IMG/VR virus record: IMGVR_UViG_3300021520_000002
Span: 124,001-188,000 of that record
DNA from: a virus
Direction: 5' to 3' (one strand)
Length of the DNA stretch: 64,000 nucleotides
Made by a program: the position numbers and the translations under genes. The first letter of the stretch is position 1. The number at the start of each line of letters is the position of its first letter. The notes under the pieces were generated by a model, which ran no database searches, was not told the origin of the DNA, and worked only from the letters and a program-made list of their open reading frames with translations. Positions 3,678 through 64,000 of this stretch are shown one piece after another.

Positions 3678-3695
3678 TATTATTTCTATATGAAA
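3678..3695 (-). promoter_or_regulatory. Consensus phage promoter-like motif
   Basis: Minus-strand sequence TTTCATATAGAAATAATA, one of 20 copies found between transcription units. It lies about 45 bases upstream of the helicase start. Elsewhere the motif is so close to the Shine-Dalgarno (as at 13764) that transcription must begin at or just after its AATAATA end. The polymerase that reads it is unknown; the phage encodes RNA polymerase subunits. Confidence 0.6.
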
Positions 3696-13763: not shown

Positions 13764-13781
13764 TATTATTTCTATATGAAA
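13764..13781 (-). promoter_or_regulatory. Consensus phage promoter-like motif
   Basis: Exact TTTCATATAGAAATAATA on the minus strand. Its left edge is 19 bases from the UDG-like start, and the RBS AAGGAGG begins a few bases after it. This restricts the transcription start to the motif's right side when read on the minus strand. Confidence 0.7.
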
Positions 13782-23616: not shown

Positions 23617-23810
23617 GGTGTAAAATACCTACTTTTAAGAATTTTATATTGTGTATAAGTTCTATTAGCAAGAATAACTAATTCAGTCTCTCTAATCAAT
23701 TCTATTATTTCTATAGGAAATAAGTTAATATCAATTTTTTCAAATGGAAGTTTTGGATCTACTGGAAATATATCAAATTCATCTAATAATAAATATTCAC
23801 CTTTTTTCAT
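23613..23810 (-). CDS. Small protein, 65 aa, paralogous to previous gene
   Basis: I choose the ATG at 23810 because the resulting start MKKGEYLLL aligns with the paralogue's MIKDEYIVL and has AGAGGA upstream. In-frame ATGs at 23849 and 23837 lie inside the preceding small gene. Shares KILKSRYF with the paralogue. Confidence 0.65.
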   Translation of the reverse strand: MKKGEYLLLDEFDIFPVDPKLPFEKIDINLFPIEIIELIRETELVILANRTYTQYKILKSRYFTP

Positions 23811-24832: not shown

Positions 24833-24841
24833 TGTTTTTTG

Positions 24842-24917
24842 ATCTCTGCGATAGGATTTGAACCTACAACCTTACCGACCCAAACGGTACACTCCACCAA
24901 GTTGAGCTACACAGAGA
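24842..24917 (-). tRNA. tRNA-Pro (UGG)
   Basis: Cloverleaf: TCTCTGT/GCAGAGA acceptor stem (last pair G-T), TACCG/CGGTA anticodon stem with loop TTTGGGT giving anticodon UGG, and a T-arm loop TTCAAAT. CCA is not encoded. Fits an AT-rich phage that uses CCA and CCT codons. Confidence 0.9.
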
Positions 24918-25335: not shown

Positions 25336-25360
25336 AATAAACTCCTATATTAATTTTATG

Positions 25361-25433
25361 AGCTGATGGCCGGATTCGAACCAGCGACAGATTGATTACA
25401 AATCAATTACTCTACCAACTGAGTTACACCAGC
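25361..25433 (-). tRNA. tRNA-Thr (UGU)
   Basis: Acceptor GCTGGTG/CATCAGC (with one G-T pair), anticodon stem ATTGA/TCAAT and loop TTTGTAA giving anticodon UGU, and T loop TTCGAAT. No encoded CCA. Confidence 0.9.
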
Positions 25434-28678: not shown

Positions 28679-28685
28679 AAATTTT

Positions 28686-28759
28686 CTGGCGTAGGAGGCT
28701 TCGAACCTCCGATAGGCAGATTAACAGTCTGCTGCCTTACCGAACTTGGCTATACGCCA
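28686..28759 (-). tRNA. tRNA-Asn (GUU)
   Basis: Acceptor TGGCGTA/TACGCCA, anticodon stem GCAGA/TCTGC with loop CTGTTAA giving GUU, T-loop TTCGAAG. Discriminator G, no encoded CCA. Promoter motif 30 bases upstream. Confidence 0.92.
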
Positions 28760-28788
28760 ATAATTTACAAATAAAATACATACTTTAA

Positions 28789-41587: not shown

Positions 41588-41660
41588 GCTGGGAGAGGAG
41601 GATTTGAACCTCCATTACCGGGGTCAAAGCCCAGCGTCTTGCCCTTCAACGATCTCCCAG
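41588..41660 (-). tRNA. tRNA-Gln (UUG)
   Basis: Acceptor CTGGGAG/CTCCCAG, anticodon stem CTGGG/CCCGG with loop CTTTGAC giving UUG, T-loop TTCAAAT. No CCA is encoded. Confidence 0.92.
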
Positions 41661-43308: not shown

Positions 43309-43935
43309 CTATCCTAAATTAATTTCTGTCTTTGCATTTGACTCAGACAGTGAAAAGTCGACGTTCAACTTGAACTCTTCAATCTCTGTTTCGATTTTTT
43401 CAATTACTTTCTTTATATCAAGTGGATCAATAAGTTTCCACTCATTTTCCTCTAAAATAGGTTTTGAAATGTTTGCGTAATCCTCAGGTTTAATTTTTGC
43501 TCCATCTTTTCCCAGATTCACCTCAAATGATCTCTGAATACGATCTGCAACATCAATATTTGCTCTCTCAATTCTTGTGTTTTTATCACCGAATTGAAAT
43601 TTTAAATTATCAAACAGTTGCTGTTGAAATTGAATTGATGTTTTCTTTTCGATTGCTTCTGCAACCGTCATTTCTTTATCACCAATTCGAACCTTTGTAA
43701 CAGCGTTAGATTCAACAATTCGTGTTTTAATTACATCACGTCTTTTAATTAAATCCTGAATCGAAGTATAATCAGCTTTCGCCTGATCTTCAAATTCTTC
43801 TCTATCTTTGAAACCAACAGGTGGTTTCTTGCCGATACAAGTTGCAAGAGCTTGAAATTTATTAATTTTGTCAGAAATTCTTTTTCCAAGAACACCAAGT
43901 TCGGCAAGTCCTCTCGTTACAGAAATATTTTCCAT
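43309..43935 (-). CDS. Unknown abundant-type protein, 208 aa
   Basis: Helical with a possible coiled coil. Starts MENISVTRGLAELGVLGKRI and contains EMTVAEAIEKKTSIQFQQQL. Codons are less AT-biased than in neighbours, and it has its own promoter and a large structured 3' region, so I expect high expression. Possibly a virion or DNA-associated protein. No family claimed. Confidence 0.75.
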   Translation of the reverse strand: MENISVTRGLAELGVLGKRISDKINKFQALATCIGKKPPVGFKDREEFEDQAKADYTSIQDLIKRRDVIKTRIVESNAVTKVRIGDKEMTVAEAIEKKTSIQFQQQLFDNLKFQFGDKNTRIERANIDVADRIQRSFEVNLGKDGAKIKPEDYANISKPILEENEWKLIDPLDIKKVIEKIETEIEEFKLNVDFSLSESNAKTEINLG

Positions 43936-44014: not shown

Positions 44015-44032
44015 TATTATTTCTATATGAAA
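44015..44032 (-). promoter_or_regulatory. Consensus phage promoter-like motif
   Basis: Exact TTTCATATAGAAATAATA on the minus strand, about 80 bases upstream of the gene at 43309-43935. Confidence 0.65.
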
Positions 44033-44050: not shown

Positions 44051-44076
44051 TGGGCAGTCCTGTTAAAGACTGCCCA
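44051..44076 (-). terminator. Intrinsic terminator, GGGCAGTC stem
   Basis: TGGGCAGTC and GACTGCCCA, the same stem as at 42925-42950, right after the alpha-CTD-like gene's stop and followed by a T-rich run on the minus strand. Confidence 0.85.
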
Positions 44077-44080
44077 TTTG

Positions 44081-44347
44081 TTATTTTTTGAATTTGAAGG
44101 GTAAAGCACCAATAAATATGAGTTTATCTTTGAGTTCATTAAAACATTGTTGACTCATACCTTTCATATTCAGAATTTGAAATTCTGATTCTTTTAATAT
44201 ATCTTCAATAGTTGTGATTTTATATTCATATCTTTTAAAAACATTCATTAATCTTGTTGATCCTTTTAAATCTTTTAATTTAAGATTTCTAAATTTTTTA
44301 AGTTTTTCTTCATCAGTTACAAGAGGTTCTTTTGAATATATTGTCAT
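44081..44347 (-). CDS. RNA polymerase alpha C-terminal domain-like protein, 88 aa
   Basis: The pattern LKDLKGSTRLMNVFKRY, ITTIEDIL, LNMKGMSQQCFNELKDKL, IGALPF follows the alpha-CTD of bacterial RNA polymerase (L..SVR..N.LKR..I.T..DL...L.NFG..S..E...KL...GL). It includes the helix-hairpin-helix and the Arg that in alpha contacts UP elements and activators. It stands alone with no alpha N-terminal domain. With beta and beta-prime genes nearby, it may help the phage or host polymerase bind phage promoters, or act as a decoy for host activators. Only ~60 residues match. Confidence 0.7.
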   Translation of the reverse strand: MTIYSKEPLVTDEEKLKKFRNLKLKDLKGSTRLMNVFKRYEYKITTIEDILKESEFQILNMKGMSQQCFNELKDKLIFIGALPFKFKK

Positions 44348-44350
44348 TTA

Positions 44351-44980
44351 TTAAACTCCTTCTGGTATAAATTCATTAATAGTTTCAAATACTTGATCTT
44401 CAATATAATCTTCTGGTTGATTTGTGAGAGTGTGTGCTGAAGTGTAATTATTATAATCAATAGATGTACTTGCTAACAGATCAACCCACATATTAAATAT
44501 ACGTCTGATAAGATCAAAATCAGACATATCTTCTTTTTTCCAAAGATATAGACATTGTGGTAATGATGCATGTTCAAATTTAGTTGGGTTATTATAGAAT
44601 TCATCTAATATCCATTTGAGTATGATTTGAGCTTGTGAATATTTTGTATAATTCATCATACAGAATAAAACCATGTAATCATAATCATTATCGGCAAGAT
44701 TCTCAATAATATTAAGTACACAATTATCGGCAAAAGTCATTACAGTGTCAGTTCCTATTTCACCAAAATTAAATGTTGATTTAGCAATATAACCATCAAT
44801 TGATGCTGTGATACAATTTAGATATTTATAAGGTTCAATAACTTTACTTATAGCATCCATTTCATATTTACAATTTTCTATTTCATCAAGAAACCAATTT
44901 TCTGAATTTACAATTTGATTCTTTATGTTTTCTATATGATTTTTTGCCGCTAACGATAAACTCACTCTAGTTGCGTACAT
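44351..44980 (-). CDS. Unknown helical protein, 209 aa
   Basis: Mostly helical, with Cys at CKYEMD, LNCITAS, DNCVLNI and LPQCLYLW. Starts MYATRVSLSLAAKNHIENI. No motif identified. Located in the unit that ends with the alpha-CTD-like gene. Confidence 0.65.
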   Translation of the reverse strand: MYATRVSLSLAAKNHIENIKNQIVNSENWFLDEIENCKYEMDAISKVIEPYKYLNCITASIDGYIAKSTFNFGEIGTDTVMTFADNCVLNIIENLADNDYDYMVLFCMMNYTKYSQAQIILKWILDEFYNNPTKFEHASLPQCLYLWKKEDMSDFDLIRRIFNMWVDLLASTSIDYNNYTSAHTLTNQPEDYIEDQVFETINEFIPEGV

Positions 44981-46927: not shown

Positions 46928-47356
46928 TTAAAATTTACTTTCGTAAGTAGCTGAACTGGTTACTGTTTCAAATACTTCAACTTTAATATTTGCTGAATTT
47001 ATATTAAACTCTTTAAGTATATTATAAACTACTTGTACAAAATCATAAGCCATATTTTCAGCTGTTGGTTCACAATTCATAATTTTATTTTTAAAACCCA
47101 TTTCTTGAACAAAATTTATAATAGTAACATCATTTGGATTTAAAATTATAGCATGATCGTATTGATCATCAAGATATAATTGAAATGCTTTTAACTTTCC
47201 AAAATCAAGAACCATATCTGATTCTAAATGTTCAACACTCACAGTTACTTTTACAACATAAGAATGACCATGAATATTTCTACATTGATGACCTATTGGC
47301 ATATTATGAAGTCTATGTGCTGCTTCAAACTTAAAACTTTTTGTTATTGAAAACAT
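46928..47356 (-). CDS. queD: 6-carboxytetrahydropterin synthase (QueD-like)
   Basis: 142 residues. FEAAHRL (His14) and RNIHGHSY (His29, His31) are the zinc ligands; CRN supplies the catalytic Cys25. LDDQYDHAI carries the catalytic Asp-His and VFETVTSSATY the late Glu. It converts dihydroneopterin triphosphate to 6-carboxytetrahydropterin on the way to preQ0. QueC and a VUT-type transporter lie in the same region; I found no QueE or GTP cyclohydrolase in the window. Confidence 0.93.
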   Translation of the reverse strand: MFSITKSFKFEAAHRLHNMPIGHQCRNIHGHSYVVKVTVSVEHLESDMVLDFGKLKAFQLYLDDQYDHAIILNPNDVTIINFVQEMGFKNKIMNCEPTAENMAYDFVQVVYNILKEFNINSANIKVEVFETVTSSATYESKF

Positions 47357-47367
47357 TTATCCTCCTT

Positions 47368-47646
47368 TTATTTGTTATTTGAAATAATCATAACATAATT
47401 TGAACACGAATAACCAAAACATGGATCTTCAGTAATCGAAATAATTTCCCCAAATTTACCACTTTTCAACTCTTTATCTAAATACATCTTATTAATGAAT
47501 GAAACTGTGTGTTGGGGTTTAACTTTAAGAAGTATGGTTAGTGTAAGTTCTTTGTTTTGATCTAGGTTTCTACCAATCCAAACAAATGTTACAATACCCA
47601 CTAAAATACATATTAATATTATTGGTATTATATTATGTGATTTCAT
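47368..47646 (-). CDS. Membrane-anchored hypothetical protein, 92 aa
   Basis: N-terminal TM helix (IIPIILICILVGIVTFVWIG), then a soluble part with one Cys pair (DPCFGYSC). The C-terminus is outside or cytoplasmic, orientation unknown. Between queD and the VUT gene. Followed by an imperfect ATCGGCAA/TTGCC inverted repeat at 47653-47687. Confidence 0.65.
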   Translation of the reverse strand: MKSHNIIPIILICILVGIVTFVWIGRNLDQNKELTLTILLKVKPQHTVSFINKMYLDKELKSGKFGEIISITEDPCFGYSCSNYVMIISNNK

Positions 47647-47666
47647 GTTTTTATCGGCAAAAAATC

Positions 47667-48236
47667 TTATATTAGATCTTGCCTATTTCTCCTTTTATTT
47701 ATATATAATAAAATTGGTATCACCAATAAACCACTTAAGTACTTAATTATAGCTTGTCCCCAGATTGCATCCCAATTCCATCCAAATGCAATAGTAACAA
47801 ACAATATAGAGTCAATAGGTGTAGAGAATAGATTTGAAAACCAAATTCTATGATGTAATGGTTTTTTCGTCAAAGTATACACTAACCAATCAACAAATTC
47901 TGAAACTAGAAATGCAGAAACTGAAGCTAATGCAACTTTCCAATTCATATAAAGAGTTATAACAGCAGATATTAAGATAAATATCCAAACTTGTAAACTA
48001 CCCCAATATCGTTGTGTAAAATCTCTAAGAGAGAATGTTAATCCAATGAATACCGCTCCAGCGGGGAAGACTAAACTTCCCCAGTGGACGATACCAAAAT
48101 AATCAACAACTAAATTGCCGATAACTATACTTAATATGTAACTGAATGCCCAGAACCATTTGATATTATTTTTTAAACTACTATTAAATGGTAAGTTTAA
48201 CCAGTTGAGCATATATGTTCGAGCTGGTTTATTCAT
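47667..48236 (-). CDS. VUT/YhhQ-family queuosine precursor transporter
   Basis: 189 residues, about five or six TM helices. YFGIVHWGSLVFPAGAVFIG, TFSLRDFTQRYWGS and SVSAFLVSEFVDWLVYTL match the VUT family, whose YhhQ branch imports queuosine precursors (preQ0/preQ1). Placement beside queD and queC supports that substrate. It would let the phage raise the precursor pool for modified guanines in tRNA or DNA. The family call is solid; the substrate is inferred. Confidence 0.8.
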   Translation of the reverse strand: MNKPARTYMLNWLNLPFNSSLKNNIKWFWAFSYILSIVIGNLVVDYFGIVHWGSLVFPAGAVFIGLTFSLRDFTQRYWGSLQVWIFILISAVITLYMNWKVALASVSAFLVSEFVDWLVYTLTKKPLHHRIWFSNLFSTPIDSILFVTIAFGWNWDAIWGQAIIKYLSGLLVIPILLYINKRRNRQDLI

Positions 48237-48258
48237 AATTAATTAACCTCCAGAATTT

Positions 48259-48930
48259 TTAATCACACTCTTCACTATAACAATCTGTACAAAAATTTCC
48301 ACGTATAGATGGAAATCCTAGACGACCACATTTTGGACATTTATAATCTTGTTTAACTTTCTCTTTTCTCTTTTTCCAAGCAATTACTTCATCAGAAGCT
48401 TTTTGAGGTGAACCATGCATACATCTTATACAATATATAATTCCACTCATTGGATAATTATAACATCCTGGTTCTGCACAAATTCTTCCTGAAAATTCTT
48501 CATCTTGTTCTTCCTGTTCTTTTTTTGATAATTTTATATCTGCTTTAATATCATTATATACAAGACCTAACCCATTTTGATAGTCAATACATTTTTTAAT
48601 TTCTTCTATTGTAAATGTATTTCTTAAATGAGTTTCACCTTCTTTTAAATCATTATCCTTTTTAAATCCATACCAATTTAATGTAAAAGGTCGACCAGTT
48701 AATAAATCTGGAATTTTCGGTTTTACATCTATAACTTCTACTTCTTCATCTTCATTTTTTTCTGTTAATGTTTTATAAAATTGTTCTTCTGTTCTAATAT
48801 CATAATTACGAACTGAACATTTAATACATTCATTATATCTAAAATATTTGTCCATACAAGGACCTACAAGACTATGTTTACAATCTAATTGTTTCTTTAT
48901 AGTTTCTTTTGTACCAACATATATTATCAT
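48259..48930 (-). CDS. Zinc-binding hypothetical protein, 223 aa
   Basis: Cys-rich at both ends: DCKHSLVGPCM, ECIKCSVR near the start; CAEPGCYNYPMSGIIYCIRC and KCPKCGRL, FCTDCYSEECD at the end. Several zinc sites. Linker Lys/Glu-rich. Lies in the queC-queD region but no reaction can be assigned. Confidence 0.65.
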   Translation of the reverse strand: MIIYVGTKETIKKQLDCKHSLVGPCMDKYFRYNECIKCSVRNYDIRTEEQFYKTLTEKNEDEEVEVIDVKPKIPDLLTGRPFTLNWYGFKKDNDLKEGETHLRNTFTIEEIKKCIDYQNGLGLVYNDIKADIKLSKKEQEEQDEEFSGRICAEPGCYNYPMSGIIYCIRCMHGSPQKASDEVIAWKKRKEKVKQDYKCPKCGRLGFPSIRGNFCTDCYSEECD

Positions 48931-48939
48931 TTTTATCCT

Positions 48940-49644
48940 TCAAAATTCTGAATATTTTATTGGATCTTTTCTTCCAATATTTTTAAAAGCTTCCAAACGT
49001 TCTTGACAACTACCACATTTACCACAAGAAAATTCTTGATCTTTGTAACAAGTTCTAGTTAATTCATATGGAGGCTGAATTTGTGCCGGTATTGAATATC
49101 CAACTTCTAATATTTTTGTTTTATCTAAATATAAGAATGGTGCTTCAACAATAATCTTTTTATCAGAACTTAAGAATATAGTGGTATTCACTGCATAAGC
49201 AAATTCAGGTCTACAATCTGGATAAATTGCATGATCACCAGCATGAGCACCAAAAGCAACAGTATCAGCACCAATACTTTCTGCATATCCTGCCATAATT
49301 GATAAAAATATTAAGTTTCTACCAGGTACAACAGTCTGAGACATATTTGCTGATTGATAATGTCCTTCAGGTATATCACCTTGTCCATTTAATAAATTAG
49401 ATTTAAATAAATCATGTACAAACGGTAAATCAACTAATTTTGGTGTTATTTTATAATAATCACAAACAGCCAAAGCTGCTTTATTTTCATATTTATTGTG
49501 TTTACTTCCATAATTAAAAATAATTGGATAAATTTCGGGTTCTTCATTTTCTTCAAAACTACTATTAATTCCTGAATACATATAATATGCAAGCATTGTA
49601 ACACTGTCCATTCCTCCAGACAAACCCATTACTATTTTCCTCAT
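48940..49644 (-). CDS. queC: 7-cyano-7-deazaguanine (preQ0) synthase QueC
   Basis: 234 residues. SGGMDS (9-14) is the ATP pyrophosphatase P-loop. VVPGRNLIFLS and FGAHAGDHAIYPDCRPEF are QueC signatures, and CYKDQEFSCGKCGSC near the end holds the zinc. It makes preQ0 from 7-carboxy-7-deazaguanine using ammonia and ATP. PreQ0 is used for tRNA queuosine and, in many phages, to modify DNA guanines. Overlaps the upstream small gene by 4 bases. Confidence 0.95.
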   Translation of the reverse strand: MRKIVMGLSGGMDSVTMLAYYMYSGINSSFEENEEPEIYPIIFNYGSKHNKYENKAALAVCDYYKITPKLVDLPFVHDLFKSNLLNGQGDIPEGHYQSANMSQTVVPGRNLIFLSIMAGYAESIGADTVAFGAHAGDHAIYPDCRPEFAYAVNTTIFLSSDKKIIVEAPFLYLDKTKILEVGYSIPAQIQPPYELTRTCYKDQEFSCGKCGSCQERLEAFKNIGRKDPIKYSEF

Positions 49645-49781
49645 TTATTCTCCTTTAAGACTTTCATTATTTTTTCAGTTGTTTCTTTAGGCTCTCTTGA
49701 AAATTTATAAGCAGTTTGAACAATACAAAAAATTTCTTCTTCTAATTTTTCTTCTTTTAATTTTTCTTGAAGAATAGTCAT
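49641..49781 (-). CDS. Small helical protein, 46 aa
   Basis: MTILQEKLKEEKLEEEIFCI, then VQTAYKFSREPKETTEKIM. Coupled to queC by ATGA. Promoter motif 13 bases upstream. Unknown. Confidence 0.55.
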   Translation of the reverse strand: MTILQEKLKEEKLEEEIFCIVQTAYKFSREPKETTEKIMKVLKENK

Positions 49782-49793
49782 TTCTTTCTCCTA

Positions 49794-49811
49794 TATTATT
49801 TCTATATGATC
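49794..49811 (-). promoter_or_regulatory. Phage promoter-like motif
   Basis: ATCATATAGAAATAATA core on the minus strand, heading the queC-VUT-queD unit. The motif ends just before the first RBS. Confidence 0.6.
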
Positions 49812-53736: not shown

Positions 53737-53754
53737 TATTATTTCTATATGAAA
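53737..53754 (-). promoter_or_regulatory. Consensus phage promoter-like motif
   Basis: Exact TTTCATATAGAAATAATA on the minus strand, about 60 bases upstream of the gene at 52976-53677. Confidence 0.65.
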
Positions 53755-53909: not shown

Positions 53910-56900
53910 CTAATTAGTTATTTCAAGTCCTAGTCCTGTCATATATAAATTGAATATATTTTTTGTACCACCAGTTCTGGAAATTTCTTCTATAGATGAT
54001 AATTCCCCAGTTTCAACAATGTCATTATACAATGTTCTTTTTGCTCTATGTTCATCACTTCTAGGACCTAATAATTCTGAAAGAATACTTTTTGCATCAT
54101 GTGTTAAGAATGAATACATATCTAATCTTGCAATACTTTGACCACCACCTTGAGATGCTCTTCTTGTTGGTTGTCTTGTTAATCCTACAAATTTACCAGT
54201 ACCTCTTACATTAGCATACACATCTACATAATGTTCAAGAAATAGAAAATGTGAAACTCCAACTGGAACAGCTGTATCTGTCCACTGATCTAATTCTGGT
54301 ATATATACTTTTTCTTCAAGAGGAATATGTAAGAATTCTGCCGCTGATTTAATAGTTTCAAAAGAAACATCTTCAAATGGTTCAACTAAATAAATCAATT
54401 TAAAATTATCATTTTTAATATCAGTTCTTAATTTTGTTCCAGTATATTGATTTAACATAGTTTTTACATTATCGGCAATTTTTTTTGGACCAAGTATTGA
54501 ATATAGATCATTAATAAATTTTACTAGTTTGTCATTTGTTACTTTAGTATCAGCAGACATTTCTTTTAACTTAATCTGACCAAAATACATTAATTTGCCG
54601 ATATAAAGTTCTTTTAACAATACAAGATTTTTACGACTAAATATACCAAGTGGTGATAGGAACACATCGATTTTAGGTGTGATTTCTCCCTTTGGTGCTG
54701 GGTCTAATAACATACTAATAACACCTTTTGATCCAAATCTATTTGCTATCTTGTCACCTTCTTGTAAAGATTTCTGTTGTTTAATATAATATACAATTTT
54801 AGCACCATTAAAAGGATTACCTTTATACTTATGTCCTCCAATATCAACAAATGACATATCTAAATTGTCTAATGCTTGATTTTTCATTTTTGGATCTTTA
54901 ATACTTTGTTGTAACTTAATAATTAAAGCTTTTGTTTCATCTACTAACTTATTATGAAAAGCTAATAAACTCTTATCAACTAGATTTTTACTATTGATAT
55001 ATAATTTAATATCAACAATTTCTCCACCAGGAGATTTCATTTTAATACTTTTTTCTCCAGCGGCAAATAAATCTAATATCTCATCATCATCATCAGAAAC
55101 TTCAGTAGCATCCAAATAATCTTCTAATGAATTATCATAACTAAATTCTACTAAAATATCACCATTTTCTGTTATTCTACCTTTTTCTTTTTCAAGTCGT
55201 AAAATTTTAGTATTCGGTTCAATGATCATTTCTTTTTCAATAACAACATCTGTTTTTGTATTATCAGCAAGAGTTTTTGAAACAACATATGAATCTTCAT
55301 GATTATATCCCATGTAATTCATTATTGCAATAAATACATTTGCTCCAGCACAATAAGTACCATTTTTATCAAAATTCTTTGTATATGCGATTATTTGATT
55401 TGTTTTAAATTTAGAACCAACTGGAAGAGCTGTCATTTCAAGAGATATATATGCTCCTCTTTTAGTTCTACTTAATCTTGGAATAATATCAAAAGTTTCA
55501 GATGTTCCATCTTTATATTTTACAGTCATAGTTTTATTATGATCTACTTCTGTAACTGAACCATCTTTTTTAGCTTTTTGTACAAATCTTGATGAAGCTA
55601 ATTGTGGAACAATAAATTCTGCTCCAGTTCCTACTAAAGGAGCTTCTGAGTTACTAACTGGAGTAGCTTGATTAGCATGTGTACGGGCAAGCACCATTCT
55701 ATCACTATCAATTTGATTCTGAAATGGTGTAAGAGATTCATCAAGTGCAACAGTTTGCCAACCTGATAATCCAGCAATATCTTTAAAGCCATATGAACCA
55801 TATTGATTCGTTATAACTGGAGTCATTGTGTGGTGTGTTACCAGACCTACATCAACATACTCCGGTGTACTATTTGCTCCCATAATTCCATACTGGGACG
55901 GGTGTATATTACGGTGTTCTTTTTTAAAGCTGCGCCTTGATGGGACGCCACCTTTTCCAGACTTTATAACTCTTGAGCTTTGCATAATCTCACTTACTGG
56001 AGCAACAGGTTCTGTATTCTGAAGTACACCAGCTTCTGTTAATAAATTAGTTATAACATATTCTGGATCAAGATAAACAGATGCTGTCTCATCTCCAGAT
56101 TCTACTTTATTTCTATAATAGTTATGTGCCATTTTAAGCTGTCTAAAAACCTGATTTAAAATAACTTCACTTAATCTGGATCTATATAATTTAAGATCAG
56201 AAAGTGAATCAATTTTTTGATTTAATAAACGATCAACAGCTGTAGTTGAAGATAATGAAACTAAATTAGTTGGAAGATCTTCGAATTGTAAAAGTTCTTT
56301 TGTAACTGGATCAACAAAGTTTTCAGTTAACAAAGTAAGTAAATTAATAGCTCTAGATCCATAAGTTTCAGCGATGTATGCGAATATTGCTTGAGGGTCT
56401 GTTAAATCCAATATTGGTGATTTAAATTTTATATTCACCAACCCATTTACAAAAAGTCTTTCTTTCAAAGTATCTGGTTTAATAAGTAAGAATTTATTAT
56501 CTTTAGTTGGTATACAAACGAATTCATTATTAATTTCATCTACAAGTTCATAATCTATACCATAATCATTGAGAGCGGCAAGAAGACCTTTTTGACTCCA
56601 CATATAGAGTATTATCGGCATTTTTATTGCGCCGATATAAATAAAAATATATGGAACTGCTCTTTTTGTTTTGGATAAGGTATCTTCTGGATTTGCTCTA
56701 GCTATTTCATCAAGTGCAACTTGAAATAAAAATTCATATCTACCAACATCAAGAGTTTCATTAGTAGCTTTGTTGATTAATTTGCCGGTATCATCATCAA
56801 TAGTTATAGTTTTTGAAGGAGATACATAAATAGTATCACCGGCAAAAAATATAGCGGTACTATCAGTAAATTTACAATACTGATCTGTTTTTTCTTCAAT

Positions 56901-58556
56901 TATTTTTGGATATCTAATTCTAATATATTCACAAATTTCTTCAATATCACTTGGATTAAATTTAATATTAGCTAATCCAATACGAACAATAGCATAATTT
57001 GAAATCATACGAACTTCATTCTTATCAGTTTTAGTAACTGGTCTAAGAAATTGTTGTGTACTCATAATATAATGATTACCATGAAGCTTAAAATATTTAT
57101 CACTTACTGGTGATGGAACTTTTAATTGAACTATATAAGGTTCTTTTTTTCCACCATTCACATTTTGTAAAGTGGCTTTATAATTAATAAATCTATCTTT
57201 ATTATCATCTTCAACAGTCCAATCAAGTTTTTTAAGTTTAACTGGATGCTCTGAACCGATATTTTCAAGAGAACCAAATAATTTTTTAACATTTTCATGA
57301 ATAGCATTTTCAAATTCGAATTTTTGCCGATGTTGACCAGTGGTAAACTTCAAATCAATAATTTTACTTGGTTCCATAGAAATATCTGGTGGATCATAAA
57401 TATCTAATGGAACTCGGTAAGTGTCAATTTGTTTTAATTTGTTAATTAAACGAGCTGGATTATCTAAATGTTCTTCTTTAACTTGATCATGTCCATATAC
57501 TGTATAGTTTATAGCTTTAATAACCACACTTTCAGCTTCTTCTCTTGTTGGTTTTTTATCAGATGTAGCTATATAAGCATCAAGAGCAGTTTTTACATTT
57601 GCTATAATATCTGGATCATCAATCTTATATGTTTTTAATATTTTTCGAAGTTCATTATGATTTAATTCCATTTTAACACTTTCATCATCAAGATCTGAAG
57701 TAGCTATAACTTTTGTTTTCTGTAAATCTTTTACAATATTAGAAATTACAGATTCAGTTTTTCGTTCAGTAGCTGGTTTTTCAACTTCTTCAGTTTCTTC
57801 ATCTGATATTGGGGATGTTTCAGAAGCTTCTTCAGTTGCTGATTGAATTTCAACAAATTTTTCCATTTTGTTTATATTCATAAGTATTAATTTTGTTTCA
57901 TCTTTTTCTCTACGAATTATTGGCATTAATACTTCTTGACAATCTGACATCATTGTAAAATTATCAAAGAATTTCATATCTTTAAAATCATCAGTTTTTA
58001 TAAGAGTTCTTATATTTTGAAATAGATTAAAAAGATTACCATTTTGATTTTTAATAAGAAATAAAAAATCAACATCATATGTAGGATCATAAGATTTTAT
58101 TTTCTCATACATAGTTTGAAATTCTTTTAACAATATTTTAAGAGCAACTCTTTCAGTAGTTCTATCTAATAGATATGCTAAAGCTTCTGTCCACATAGAA
58201 GCATCATAAAAGAAAAATTTAATAGGTTTTTTATTCTTATCTTCAGTTTCATCTTTTTCTTCAATTAAGTTGCCTAAAACTTTTATTTTTTTACCTATTT
58301 TCTTTTCATCAAGAGTTAATAATCTTTTTTTAACTTCAAGATAATGGGCTTTGCCGTTAAACTTTTTATTGCCGATACTAAATATTTTATTGGGACACAC
58401 AATACCAGCACAATTTGACATAAGTAAATTAGTGTGATATATTTCATTCCAGATTTGTAAATTAGTATCTGGAAAAGTTATAAAAATAACTCTTTTATTA
58501 ACATATAGTTTTTGATTTTTAATAATTGAGCTTAAATGCACATTATCATAATTCAT
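53910..58556 (-). CDS. DNA-directed RNA polymerase beta subunit
   Basis: 1548 residues in one chain, larger than E. coli RpoB (1342). RRSFKKEHRNIHPSQYGIMG (about 874-893) is the rifampicin-region motif, MGYNHEDSYVVS (about 1080) the GYN.ED block, NRFGSKGVISMLL (about 1272) the GRHGNKG block, and GGQSIARLDMYSFL near 1471 the C-terminal block that joins beta-prime. The N-terminal ~370 residues are an extra, charged region with no match. In phages of the phiKZ type beta is split; here it is not. It should form a polymerase with beta-prime pieces, one at 59080 and one outside. Confidence 0.95.
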   Translation of the reverse strand: MNYDNVHLSSIIKNQKLYVNKRVIFITFPDTNLQIWNEIYHTNLLMSNCAGIVCPNKIFSIGNKKFNGKAHYLEVKKRLLTLDEKKIGKKIKVLGNLIEEKDETEDKNKKPIKFFFYDASMWTEALAYLLDRTTERVALKILLKEFQTMYEKIKSYDPTYDVDFLFLIKNQNGNLFNLFQNIRTLIKTDDFKDMKFFDNFTMMSDCQEVLMPIIRREKDETKLILMNINKMEKFVEIQSATEEASETSPISDEETEEVEKPATERKTESVISNIVKDLQKTKVIATSDLDDESVKMELNHNELRKILKTYKIDDPDIIANVKTALDAYIATSDKKPTREEAESVVIKAINYTVYGHDQVKEEHLDNPARLINKLKQIDTYRVPLDIYDPPDISMEPSKIIDLKFTTGQHRQKFEFENAIHENVKKLFGSLENIGSEHPVKLKKLDWTVEDDNKDRFINYKATLQNVNGGKKEPYIVQLKVPSPVSDKYFKLHGNHYIMSTQQFLRPVTKTDKNEVRMISNYAIVRIGLANIKFNPSDIEEICEYIRIRYPKIIEEKTDQYCKFTDSTAIFFAGDTIYVSPSKTITIDDDTGKLINKATNETLDVGRYEFLFQVALDEIARANPEDTLSKTKRAVPYIFIYIGAIKMPIILYMWSQKGLLAALNDYGIDYELVDEINNEFVCIPTKDNKFLLIKPDTLKERLFVNGLVNIKFKSPILDLTDPQAIFAYIAETYGSRAINLLTLLTENFVDPVTKELLQFEDLPTNLVSLSSTTAVDRLLNQKIDSLSDLKLYRSRLSEVILNQVFRQLKMAHNYYRNKVESGDETASVYLDPEYVITNLLTEAGVLQNTEPVAPVSEIMQSSRVIKSGKGGVPSRRSFKKEHRNIHPSQYGIMGANSTPEYVDVGLVTHHTMTPVITNQYGSYGFKDIAGLSGWQTVALDESLTPFQNQIDSDRMVLARTHANQATPVSNSEAPLVGTGAEFIVPQLASSRFVQKAKKDGSVTEVDHNKTMTVKYKDGTSETFDIIPRLSRTKRGAYISLEMTALPVGSKFKTNQIIAYTKNFDKNGTYCAGANVFIAIMNYMGYNHEDSYVVSKTLADNTKTDVVIEKEMIIEPNTKILRLEKEKGRITENGDILVEFSYDNSLEDYLDATEVSDDDDEILDLFAAGEKSIKMKSPGGEIVDIKLYINSKNLVDKSLLAFHNKLVDETKALIIKLQQSIKDPKMKNQALDNLDMSFVDIGGHKYKGNPFNGAKIVYYIKQQKSLQEGDKIANRFGSKGVISMLLDPAPKGEITPKIDVFLSPLGIFSRKNLVLLKELYIGKLMYFGQIKLKEMSADTKVTNDKLVKFINDLYSILGPKKIADNVKTMLNQYTGTKLRTDIKNDNFKLIYLVEPFEDVSFETIKSAAEFLHIPLEEKVYIPELDQWTDTAVPVGVSHFLFLEHYVDVYANVRGTGKFVGLTRQPTRRASQGGGQSIARLDMYSFLTHDAKSILSELLGPRSDEHRAKRTLYNDIVETGELSSIEEISRTGGTKNIFNLYMTGLGLEITN

Positions 58557-59079: not shown

Positions 59080-60858
59080 TTAAATATCATAATAACTTTC
59101 TATAACGATCTTTTCAATAGGATCTAATTTAGCATCTTTACCTTCCATTAATCCAACCTTTATAGCTCTATTAATGTTTTCAAAAGCTAATGCATTTAAC
59201 CAACTTGTAGCAAAGGGTAATTTTTTCTGACCCATAATTTCAACATGTTTGTATCCAGATAATCTTGCTGGTTTTGTTGTATCATCAGCATCTCGAAACA
59301 TATTACTTACAATTAATTCAATATGACAAAGATCAATTCCTGGTAATTTATCATGCATAGTCATTACAAGTGTTTCTGGATTTGTAATATATTTTGCTCC
59401 ACCTTCAAATAATCTCATCATAACTCTTTCATTAAAGTTATCTGAATAATAATCCTGTTTCATAATAACTTCACCAGGTTCATAATTCATAGTTATAATA
59501 TGACCTTCAGATTGGTAATCTGTTGGTTTAATAAGATCAACAACAATTCCTATTGGGAGGGTAACAAAACTGAGATGAGGTATCTCTCCTATCTGAACTG
59601 TTAAAATTCCTGGAATTTGAAATTTATCTCCAGAATCAATCAAACTAATATCATCATATTCATCTTGATCTATAGAAATAGTACATGATACTTTAGCGAT
59701 TATTTCATTTTTTCTAATATCAAAATAAGGTTTAAGATCGGCAAGATCTACACCAGATTTTTTTATGAGGGCTGGAAAATCAACTTCTACAGTTGACATT
59801 GATGATGGTTTGTGTCTCATTTTCATCATAGCATTGATACCAACAACATTAACAGCGCCACCAGCTAAAATACCAACATTTTTAGTATTTAATTTTTTAT
59901 GAAGATCACCATAACAAATTTCGCATATACCTTCTTCTGATTTACAATATAAAGGAGATCTTAATTTGATTGTTTTGCCGATAACTTCATCAAGACTATC
60001 AATCTTTTTAAGTTTTACATCTTCATCAATATAATATCTTTGTTGTATTAATTTAGCAATATCATCATTTACACTTATTGAAAAATATTTTTTTGAACCA
60101 CAATTCTTTTCTCCAATTTGTGTGCTGGCATTCGCCATTGTGGTTTTGGTTGTTAAATAACCAGGATGTGCAGTTAAAGAGGACCTGGAATAGAAATTAC
60201 TTCTAGCTTCTGAAGCGGCATTATAATAATCTACTTTTCCATATCCATCATTTAATGATTTTGTAATTGGACCAAGAAGTTTACCTTCAATATCAATAAC
60301 ATATCCTCTAGCTACTAATAATAACATCCAATCACCAACTGGATTTCCCTTAGGACTAAAATCAAGAATATTATTGATTCTATAACCAGTTTCTTTTAAG
60401 ATAGCCAATAATTCAACATTAAGTTTTTCAGCTTCTTTTTTAAATTCCATAGGATTTAATTTATCGGCAACTTTTAAAAATTCATTTTTCTTTTTCAACC
60501 AATCTGCTGGAGGAATAAAATCTTCAATATTAAATGAATTTGGTGAAACTGAAGCTAACTTAAAAGCTTCAGATTGGAGCTTGGTAAGATATTCTGCCGA
60601 TACATCAACACCATATTTTTTATACATATCAATAACAAGTTGTTGAAGTTTCTTTTTAGTCATTGTTTCACTAATAAGTGGATAATCTTCAGGTAATATA
60701 ATATTTATCCAAATTCTACCTAAAGATGTTAAAACAGATCTACCATTTGTTTTGAATGGATGGGTATAAGCAAACTTATCACTTAGCTTACTTCCTTCTT
60801 TGATCAGATTATATACATCACTAGGAGTTGCAATCATAGGTTCTGATATTTTAGACAT
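59080..60858 (-). CDS. RNA polymerase beta-prime subunit, C-terminal half
   Basis: 592 residues. It starts near TSLGRIWINIILP, aligning with the TTVGR.LLW..VP region after the catalytic loop of E. coli beta-prime. The bridge-helix text SRSSLTAHPGYLTTKT (about 224-239), zinc motif CKSEEGICEICYG and VVGINAMMKMRH (cognate of GEPGTQLTMRTFH) follow. The catalytic NADFDGD motif is absent, so a separate N-terminal beta-prime gene must lie elsewhere. Overlaps the small gene at 60851 by 8 bases. Confidence 0.92.
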   Translation of the reverse strand: MSKISEPMIATPSDVYNLIKEGSKLSDKFAYTHPFKTNGRSVLTSLGRIWINIILPEDYPLISETMTKKKLQQLVIDMYKKYGVDVSAEYLTKLQSEAFKLASVSPNSFNIEDFIPPADWLKKKNEFLKVADKLNPMEFKKEAEKLNVELLAILKETGYRINNILDFSPKGNPVGDWMLLLVARGYVIDIEGKLLGPITKSLNDGYGKVDYYNAASEARSNFYSRSSLTAHPGYLTTKTTMANASTQIGEKNCGSKKYFSISVNDDIAKLIQQRYYIDEDVKLKKIDSLDEVIGKTIKLRSPLYCKSEEGICEICYGDLHKKLNTKNVGILAGGAVNVVGINAMMKMRHKPSSMSTVEVDFPALIKKSGVDLADLKPYFDIRKNEIIAKVSCTISIDQDEYDDISLIDSGDKFQIPGILTVQIGEIPHLSFVTLPIGIVVDLIKPTDYQSEGHIITMNYEPGEVIMKQDYYSDNFNERVMMRLFEGGAKYITNPETLVMTMHDKLPGIDLCHIELIVSNMFRDADDTTKPARLSGYKHVEIMGQKKLPFATSWLNALAFENINRAIKVGLMEGKDAKLDPIEKIVIESYYDI

Positions 60859-61304: not shown

Positions 61305-64000
61305 TTAACCGCAACTTCCCTCATTCCAAGCACAACTTACACATGTCCAACAGCTACCAAGAAGTCTCATAAAACTTCCACATTCAGGACAGGTTGGAGC
61401 TGAATCGTTCATTTCCATAGCTACTTTACTAACTATTTCTTTTGTTATTTTTTCTATTCCATTTTCTGTTACTTGTTTAGGAACAAGTCCCAGTTCTTGC
61501 CGATCTTCTTCTGATAGATAATGCATTCCAAGATATTTAAATATATAATCAACTATACTGGTACAAGATCTGATATCTGCATTACTTGTAAAACCAGCTG
61601 GATCAAAACGAAGAAACATCATCTTTTTTACAAAATCTTTTAATGGAATACCATATTGTAAAGAGATACTTACAATAGTTGCAAGTGCATCAGCAAATCC
61701 TGAAAGTGTACTTCCTTCCTTAGTTAAATCAATAAATATTTCACCAAGTGAACCATCTTCATAAAATCCTGGAGCTAAATATCCTTCAACATTACCAACT
61801 CTAAATTTATGTCTATGAGCTGGTCTATCATCAGGAAGTTTTTTACGAATTGGTTTATGGTTTTTTAAAGTTTCATCAAGTTTAACTATTCGATTTGACC
61901 ATTCACCAGAATTTTGAGAAATCATTTCAACTTTCTTTTCTTCTTTCTTATCAGCAGAAAGAGGTTGAAATGCTTTGCTACCATCTCTATAAATTGTTAT
62001 TCCTTTGAGACCCATCTTCCAAGCTTTAATATAAAGACCATAAACATCTTTAACAGTTGCTGAATTGGGAAGATTAATTGTTTTACTCATTCCCATAGAT
62101 ATAAATGGTTGAATAGCGGCACACATCTTAACATGACCCATATAATCAATCATTCTTGTGCAACCTCTTGGATTCATAGAGGTATCAAATATTGCCATAT
62201 GTTCATCTTTAACAATTGTACTATTTTCTAAGCTTCCATCTTCTTCAATAGTTTCTAATATTAATTTTATTTTTTGTTCTGTATAACCTAAATTTTCTAA
62301 GGCTACTTCAACAATTGGATTCACAAATTTCAGAACTGCATTTTCAGAACCAGAAAGAGTTTTATATCTTATTAAGCTAAACTCCGGTTCCATTCCAGTT
62401 GTATATGCTTCCATTAAACTTGAAATTGTTCCAGTGGGAGCAAGAAGAGTTACAGTTGCATTTCTGAATGGAGCTTGATTATCAATTAAATTTTTAATAT
62501 TAAGCCAATGTTCATTCAATAATATTTCCATAGTTTTTATTATTGTTGATTTTTTTGCACCAGCAAATTGAACATCTAAATATTTAATATGTTTATTTAA
62601 AACATTATAAAATGGTTCTTTATTTTCTTCAAATTTATCAAATGGTCCAAATATAGTTGCTAATTTATTACTTGTTTGATAAGCAATAGCTGTTAATAAT
62701 CCTGTTAACATTCCAGTAAGAGTTCTAGCTTCATCACTATCATAAGGTAAACCAAGATACATTAATAATGCACCAAGATTTGTAAAACCAGCTCCTAGCG
62801 GACGAAATTCTCTTGTGTTTTTCTTAATTTCTTCTGTTGGATATGAAGATTTATTAATTAGAATATCTTGCGCAATTATCATAATTTCAACAACTTCTTT
62901 AAATGTAGGATAATCAAATTTAAAATTATTAGTATATTTGTCATATTTAAAGAATTTTAAAAGATTGATGCTTGCTAAGTTACAACTTGAGTTGTCTATG
63001 AATGCAAACTCTCCACATGGATTGGTACTGTTTATTTTGCCGCTATTTATACATGTGTGCCATTCATTAAAAGTATCACTAAATAAAATTCCTGGATCGC
63101 CATTTTTCCAAGCATGTTCTGCTATTTTTACTAATAAATCTCTAGCTTTATACTTAGTACAGTTTTCTCCAGTCTTTACAAATTTAGTATACCAATCTCC
63201 ATCTTCTTCTGCAGCTTTCATAAAAGCTTCACTTAATCTAACACTAATATTTGTATTCTGATAAAATGCTTCATCAGACATTTCATAACCTTCTCTAGGA
63301 ATAAATCCAGCATCTCTTAAAATTCTTAATTTTTCTTCTTCATGATCTTTAATTTCAATAAAGTCTTCTATATCTGGATGGTCAATATTCATACAAACCA
63401 TTTTTGCAGAACGTCTTAATGTACCAGCACTTTTTATAGTGCCTGCATCAACATCATGACATCGTAAAAAAGAACAAGGTCCAGAAGCATGACCACCCCT
63501 AGATACTGTTTCTTTTTTACTTCTTAATGGACTCATATTCATTCCAGTTCCACTTCCATGTTTAAATATTTCTGCTTCGACTCCAGCAACTTCAAAAATA
63601 GATTTCATATTATCATCAATTTTAAGAATAAAACATGCTGATGTTTGTGGTTCATCTGAAAGTCCAACATTAAAATATACAGGACTATTAAATGCAAAAT
63701 ATTGATGTATTTGATAGTATTTCAATTTGTAATTAAAATCAGGAAAATCTGTTTTGTCCTCTTCAAAATATCTTTGATCTCTTGCCCAATTCGTAATTGT
63801 ATCAGATACTCTATCAATCATTTGTTTAAGACTTGTTTCTTTTAATTTTGCATTATTACATAAATATCTACTTGCAACAATTGCAGCATGACCATCATCG
63901 AATCCTTCAGGAAAGTCAATATCTTCATTGAATGTAATTTTTCCTTCTTTATTCTTAATTTCGATATGCTTCTTTACAAATTTAATATTTTTATACGGAT
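61305..64000 (-). CDS. nrdJ: Adenosylcobalamin-dependent (class II) ribonucleotide reductase, 5' end outside
   Basis: The frame is open to the right edge (IDFPEGFDDGHAAIVASRYL precedes the first in-window ATG at 63821), so the true start lies beyond the window. FNVGL and GTGMNMSPLR, NPCGEFAFIDNSSCNL (active-site Cys), RPLGAGFTNLGALL and APTGTISSLM are class I/II reductase motifs; overall text matches the large NrdJ type. The C-terminus CPECGSFMRLLGSCWTCVSC carries redox or zinc Cys. It makes deoxynucleotides for phage DNA using B12. No class I beta subunit is visible. Confidence 0.92.
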   Translation of the reverse strand, partial: PYKNIKFVKKHIEIKNKEGKITFNEDIDFPEGFDDGHAAIVASRYLCNNAKLKETSLKQMIDRVSDTITNWARDQRYFEEDKTDFPDFNYKLKYYQIHQYFAFNSPVYFNVGLSDEPQTSACFILKIDDNMKSIFEVAGVEAEIFKHGSGTGMNMSPLRSKKETVSRGGHASGPCSFLRCHDVDAGTIKSAGTLRRSAKMVCMNIDHPDIEDFIEIKDHEEEKLRILRDAGFIPREGYEMSDEAFYQNTNISVRLSEAFMKAAEEDGDWYTKFVKTGENCTKYKARDLLVKIAEHAWKNGDPGILFSDTFNEWHTCINSGKINSTNPCGEFAFIDNSSCNLASINLLKFFKYDKYTNNFKFDYPTFKEVVEIMIIAQDILINKSSYPTEEIKKNTREFRPLGAGFTNLGALLMYLGLPYDSDEARTLTGMLTGLLTAIAYQTSNKLATIFGPFDKFEENKEPFYNVLNKHIKYLDVQFAGAKKSTIIKTMEILLNEHWLNIKNLIDNQAPFRNATVTLLAPTGTISSLMEAYTTGMEPEFSLIRYKTLSGSENAVLKFVNPIVEVALENLGYTEQKIKLILETIEEDGSLENSTIVKDEHMAIFDTSMNPRGCTRMIDYMGHVKMCAAIQPFISMGMSKTINLPNSATVKDVYGLYIKAWKMGLKGITIYRDGSKAFQPLSADKKEEKKVEMISQNSGEWSNRIVKLDETLKNHKPIRKKLPDDRPAHRHKFRVGNVEGYLAPGFYEDGSLGEIFIDLTKEGSTLSGFADALATIVSISLQYGIPLKDFVKKMMFLRFDPAGFTSNADIRSCTSIVDYIFKYLGMHYLSEEDRQELGLVPKQVTENGIEKITKEIVSKVAMEMNDSAPTCPECGSFMRLLGSCWTCVSCAWNEGSCG

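Follow-up and report, generated by a model that had tools for sequence, protein, structure and literature searches.

A putative free-standing RNA polymerase alpha C-terminal domain encoded by a virus with multisubunit RNA polymerase genes

From our analysis, we propose that an 88-residue viral protein encoded on the minus strand at positions 44081..44347 of the window (the 64,000-nucleotide stretch of DNA analysed here, which covers positions 124001-188000 of a virus record of 285,572 bases and 27% GC) appears to be a diverged, free-standing C-terminal domain of the RNA polymerase alpha subunit (alpha-CTD). We further propose that it could serve as an A/T-tract DNA-binding accessory of transcription, a reading to which we give a probability of about one half. 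Homology to the alpha-CTD is itself very probable from the sequence comparisons described below, and the function suggested for it is put more cautiously.

The open reading frame (ORF) looks like a real gene. It starts with ATG, carries the domain at residues 17-80, is preceded by AGAAGGAG, a strong ribosome-binding site, 5' of the ATG, and is followed by a terminator-like hairpin (44051..44076, minus strand) and then AAAATTTTATTTT; in the RNA fold, 61 nt around this hairpin reach -18.8 kcal/mol (z -5.45). Only 3 bases separate the ATG from the stop codon of the 5' neighbour, a 209-aa ORF (44351..44980, minus strand) that would belong to the same operon. Fourteen minus-strand ORFs, the alpha-CTD gene being the last, lie between a promoter-like motif at 49795-49808 and the hairpin at 44051-44076, and we infer that they form one transcript. 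The first of them, a 46-aa ORF just behind the motif (49641..49781, minus strand), is followed by QueC (48940..49644, minus strand; PF06508, E 4.2e-53). A member of the 6-pyruvoyl-tetrahydropterin synthase (PTPS) family, probably QueD-like (46928..47356, minus strand; PF01242, E 9e-28), and a Vut_1 transporter recognised by Pfam also belong to the putative operon, while 8 other ORFs gave nothing above the Pfam cut-off in a scan that excluded the 46-aa ORF. Taken together, QueC, Vut_1 and the PTPS-family protein indicate that 46928-49644 probably encodes a 7-deazaguanine (preQ0) pathway that may serve to modify DNA.

The family assignment rests on several searches. In Pfam, the alpha-CTD family RNA_pol_A_CTD (PF03118) matched the protein with an E-value of 2.5e-7 and 30.8 bits, above the curated cut-off of 23.8, residues 13-76 aligning with profile positions 4-65 of 67, nearly the whole domain. 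This bears out the earlier note, made from the letters alone, which had seen the alpha-CTD pattern over about 60 residues and had named the segments TRLMN, MKGMSQQCFNEL and IGALPF, every one of which is present. That note would have counted against its own reading a better match to another helix-hairpin-helix (HhH) family without an R265-like residue; we found an R265-like residue, R32, and no HhH family among the Pfam rows up to E 10, a list from which HMMER filters remove most matches weaker than about E 0.1. The remaining Pfam rows up to E 10 were Rad17 (0.022) and CHASE2 (0.31) only; sigma-70 region 4 gave no Pfam match, and the assembly domain of alpha, the alpha-NTD, is absent from the protein. 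PHROGs returned a single weak row, exonuclease V (E 0.012). In NCBIfam, the top 8 among 10 rows were rpoA models (best 3.3e-8), all far under those models' full-length cut-offs, as expected since the protein is a single domain. All ten sequences listed by a PDB sequence search up to E 10 were RpoA chains. An independent profile built from 46 other alpha-CTDs, with the 88-aa protein excluded, gave it 27.8 bits, against 4.6 bits for the runner-up among the other 631 stop-to-stop ORFs of the window and two further regions (L114 and L002) and against 16.1 and 10.1 bits for the best and second best of 10,000 shuffles. From this match and its margin over the shuffles, we conclude that the alpha-CTD reading is not due to chance. 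The same virus encodes a 625-aa NAD-dependent DNA ligase with BRCT (L002:994-2871) whose HhH part likewise matches PF03118 weakly, but this match is below the cut-off and lies inside a ligase; with 4.6 bits in the independent profile, we rejected it as an alpha-CTD.

Structure prediction and comparison to RpoA, the check proposed in the earlier note, gave a divided answer. AlphaFold gave an unusable model from the single sequence (pLDDT 44.9), and with an alignment of 46 alpha-CTDs, comprising 34 of 61 viral and 12 of 80 bacterial alpha-CTD loci, it gave the alpha-CTD fold with a pLDDT of 79.6 over the whole chain and of 86-91 within residues 21-80. As the sequence alone yields nothing usable, the good model owes much to the alignment. 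When the aligned model was searched against the PDB with Foldseek, RNA polymerase alpha chains came first (E 2.3e-3) and the best 45 rows were RNA polymerase entries; neither library gave a match at E <= 0.001. VIA-align reached Z up to 11.2, to 1z3e_B over 67 residues at 1.5 A, with the first non-polymerase entry listed at 7.6, on a scale where Z below about 13 possibly reflects an arrangement common in helical bundles. An alpha-CTD fold of the 88-aa protein is predicted as likely.

We then consider the residues by which an alpha-CTD would contact DNA, which we take, with their E. coli numbering and roles, to be R265, N268, C269, G296, K298, S299 and E302. In the alignment, the equivalents of R265, N268, K271 and E302 are kept, as is the acidic residue at 259; in this set of seven, three are identical (R32 for R265, N35 for N268 and E71 for E302) and four are changed, with V36, S65, Q67 and C68 standing for C269, G296, K298 and S299. 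The R32 column holds arginine in 46/46 of the other alpha-CTDs, an invariance of R265, as of E302, that is partly selection because the search patterns for many of the loci include both residues. The equivalent of the sigma-contact residue E261 is K28. Thus the minor-groove residues of the first hairpin appear mostly kept and the second hairpin altered. The contacts of the second hairpin seem mostly lost, and the sigma-contact residue with them, which counts against the reading as an A/T-tract accessory of transcription. Compared with the RpoA CTDs of B. subtilis (1z3e_B, 3gfk_B) and E. coli (1lb2), the protein is alike in domain extent, predicted fold and R265/N268/K271/E302, but it has no alpha-NTD, is 14-26% identical to the RNA polymerase chains aligned by VIA-align, has a 2-residue insertion after the first helix and a changed second hairpin, and has a basic rather than acidic core (computed pI of the protein, 9.6). 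We regard DNA binding by the 88-aa protein as likely.

Candidate DNA targets come from a putative phage promoter motif. The copy CATATAGAAATAAT at 49795..49808 (minus strand) would head the operon of the alpha-CTD gene, and the next copy, at 44016..44029 (minus strand), heads the gene at 43309-43935. Further copies of the putative motif, TTTCATATAGAAATAAT, lie on the minus strand at 3679-3692, 13765-13778 and 53738-53751, and the motif often has a terminator-like hairpin on one side and a ribosome-binding site on the other. The motif around CATATAGAAATAAT precedes many genes, with 28 matches in the window at <=2 mismatches against 6.2 expected. The 13-mer TATAGAAATAATA has 33 exact copies in the genome, 30 of them on the minus strand, and 55 copies with <=1 mismatch versus 20 for a reversed control. 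Among 34 instances of the motif, at least one of which (near 23715) may fall inside a gene, the region from -20 to -5 averages 63% T where a stable fold lies upstream (22 instances) and 49% T where none does (12 instances). In these 12, T falls to roughly 27-42% further upstream, positions -30 to -20 are A-rich, and a T run of >=4 occurs in only 6/12. It is suggestive that this A-then-T tract before the putative promoter motif is what the alpha-CTD would bind. Terminators, or the core promoter itself, may instead account for the T tract, and both the terminator tails and the 27% GC of the genome weaken the inference.

The virus itself carries RNA polymerase genes. The window encodes a 1548-aa beta-like subunit (53910..58556, minus strand; phrog_3148, E 7.3e-62; PF00562, E 5.5e-23) and a 592-aa piece of a large subunit (59080..60858, minus strand; phrog_3015, E 9.9e-26), the latter labelled beta by PHROGs and hinted to be beta' by Pfam (Rpb1 domain 5, PF04998, E 0.006, below cut-off). 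Outside the window, the same record encodes another beta-like protein, 656 aa long (L114:17158-19128); a 389-aa ORF near this second beta has no PHROGs match, and we gave up the idea of a split beta with this ORF as its N-terminal half. The catalytic region of beta' (PF00623) matched above cut-off at 196.7 kb and 238.8 kb, with a weaker third piece at 240.4 kb (record positions 196651-196974, 238824-239117 and 240364-240501). The matches near 239-240 kb fall into two pieces separated by about 1.2 kb, one of them containing an in-frame TGA, and perhaps represent a split or interrupted gene. The two beta-like proteins and the distant PF00623 matches point to two sets of multisubunit RNA polymerase genes, as in phiKZ-type phages, which is well supported by the sequence matches. 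The alpha-NTD (PF01000) had no match anywhere in the record at E values up to 1 and matched 13/14 control genomes, so that the alpha-less phage polymerase assumed in the earlier note agrees with the gene content; sigma region 4 (PF04545) is likewise absent up to E 1 and matched 14/14 control genomes. Neither the 1548-aa beta nor the second beta led us to close kin of the virus, in searches from which very near records were possibly left out. An alignment of two rows retrieved one record only, and 7/39 records matched in the beta-subunit search overall, an insensitive search that missed JD-Fnp1 and matched LPJP1 only partially, tblastn matching both. The ribonucleotide reductase gene (61305-63821) has its best phage match in the unannotated LR745208 (38.7%) and its next in Geobacillus virus E3 (37.3%), where it is annotated as B12-dependent class II; a search with it gave 71 loci, and among 30 such records searched with beta only G018 matches. 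Four tRNA genes, for Pro, Thr, Asn and Gln, are scattered between protein genes at 24841-24917, 25360-25433, 28685-28760 and 41588-41659.

Close relatives of the 88-aa protein did not emerge: a tblastn search of 50,697 phage records with a limit of E 10 turned up nothing but matches of 25 residues in 6 records of Listeria phages (E 4-6), which we took as chance, and none came from pattern scans of viral and genome contig collections, a method whose reach is confined to close relatives. Alpha-CTD proteins encoded by phages are a kind already known and not rare. Outside rpoA, the domain is present in proteins of Bacillus phage Goe8 (210 aa), Microbacterium phage Mazun (gp26, 141 aa) and Mycobacterium phage Marley1013 (gp51, 160 aa), and in Mecenats66 it is fused to NinX. 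BFVD includes proteins under the name 'RNA polymerase, alpha subunit, C-terminal', and we found such proteins in three further viral records (G002, G015 and G021) and at 72 IMG/VR loci, of which 61 were kept and 11 dropped as duplicates, near-duplicates or contig-end cuts. Like the 88-aa protein, the Goe8, Mazun and Marley1013 proteins have an alpha-CTD without the remainder of RpoA; they are longer, whereas in the 88-aa protein the domain is nearly the whole protein. Goe8, the one of these three searched with this virus's beta, gave no match, whereas the genome of the 88-aa protein has multisubunit polymerase genes. Sigma region 4 (PF04545) was matched by 41/61 of the distinct viral proteins (L119-L190), the others matching other helix-turn-helix families, and PF01000 was absent among the best 25 of 28 families listed for the 61. 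We therefore consider that phages employ the domain in transcription proteins. The alpha-CTD is common to these sigma-70 region 4 proteins and the 88-aa protein, and PF04545 is missing from the latter and from its genome record. In our literature search, whose coverage left out most subscription journals and bioRxiv, we found, among the titles listed, none on stand-alone phage alpha-CTDs and nothing on viral fusions of sigma region 4 and alpha-CTD.

Some PF03118 matches were set aside. Across 31 records, 11 matched PF03118 and 5 did so above the cut-off; G002, G015 and G021, all above it, were read as alpha-CTD proteins, the set that was read leaving out G008 and 6 matches below the cut-off. 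The G003 match (L093) was instead, by our own reading, a ligase-like HhH-BRCT protein. A Bacillus-type alpha-CTD was matched by 32 phage records, many of which we did not count as phage examples since they resemble bacterial rpoA contamination, with 75-90% identity in unannotated records or an annotated rpoA in bacterial assemblies.

The unusual feature is the alpha-CTD in the company of multisubunit RNA polymerase genes. At E <= 0.001, PF03118 was found in 0/13 other phages with such an enzyme (phiR1-37, SA1, LPJP1, JD-Fnp1, AH04, AR9, phiKZ, MarsHill, OBP, FLC6, SPN3US, GN1 and Survivor), a survey that could miss a copy more diverged than the 88-aa protein; polymerase status was taken from our own searches and, for phiKZ, from a passage of PMC7598289. 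This suggests that the phage enzyme has no general need of an alpha-CTD.

The protein might be directed at the host instead, as a decoy that occupies UP elements or activator surfaces and thereby lowers host transcription or frees host RNA polymerase. An isolated alpha-CTD is a weak DNA binder, which speaks against such a decoy, and the lysine at K28 in place of the E261-like sigma-contact residue, together with the changed hairpin loop, also argues against it. Its appeal lies in the alpha-CTD proteins of Goe8, G002, G015 and G021, records without a match to this virus's beta (a weak negative, as the same search missed JD-Fnp1), and in phages that modify or destroy host alpha, for which PMC7824862 gives T4 Alt/ModA and Rac. 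On balance we regard the decoy as rather unlikely.

Slightly more doubtful still is that the protein is merely a small HhH DNA-binding protein untied from transcription and acting, for example, in replication, in repair or in the 7-deazaguanine pathway of its operon. By our own reading, its hairpin KGMS resembles the general HhH loop as much as the NLGKKS loop of the alpha-CTD; PF03118 picks up ligase HhH domains too, and the operon mates are QueC, a PTPS-family protein and Vut_1. Yet the Pfam rows of the protein include no HhH family, its match spans profile positions 4-65 where HhH-like matches span about 30-65, and the ligase of its own genome falls far behind it in the independent profile (4.6 against 27.8 bits). 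Divergence, the short length of 88 aa and the lack of a close homologue could also be read as chance resemblance or a decayed, functionless gene fragment, but a clean ORF, a strong ribosome-binding site, the operon position, the terminator and a score far above the shuffles make this very improbable.

The A/T-tract accessory remains our preferred reading, in which the protein, made from a polycistronic phage operon, would fold as the double helix-hairpin-helix of the alpha-CTD and insert R32 and N35 into the minor groove of A/T-tract DNA. It would be a small transcription accessory that acts in trans and has no alpha-NTD; that it acts in transcription at all we hold to be slightly favoured, and the odds between phage and host promoters to be about even. 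By a narrow margin, we favour as its site of action the A/T tract that precedes the promoter-like motif of the phage itself, with host promoters as the chief alternative; at that tract, it could stabilise RNA polymerase binding or block it. A more specific and, in our view, improbable version is that it is a trans-acting stand-in for the missing alpha-CTD, docking at the A/T tract before CATATAGAAATAAT promoters and helping to recruit the alpha-less phage polymerase. If this were true, an UP-element system would have been rebuilt without an alpha subunit. A 2020 review (PMC7598289) describes jumbo phage RNA polymerases as lacking alpha and omega, and states that no homologue of any known initiation factor can be recognised in the genomes of these phages; a genome of this type with an alpha-CTD would depart from that statement. 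The 88-aa protein would then offer a small, purifiable handle on how alpha-less polymerases find their promoters, or on how a phage treats host transcription.
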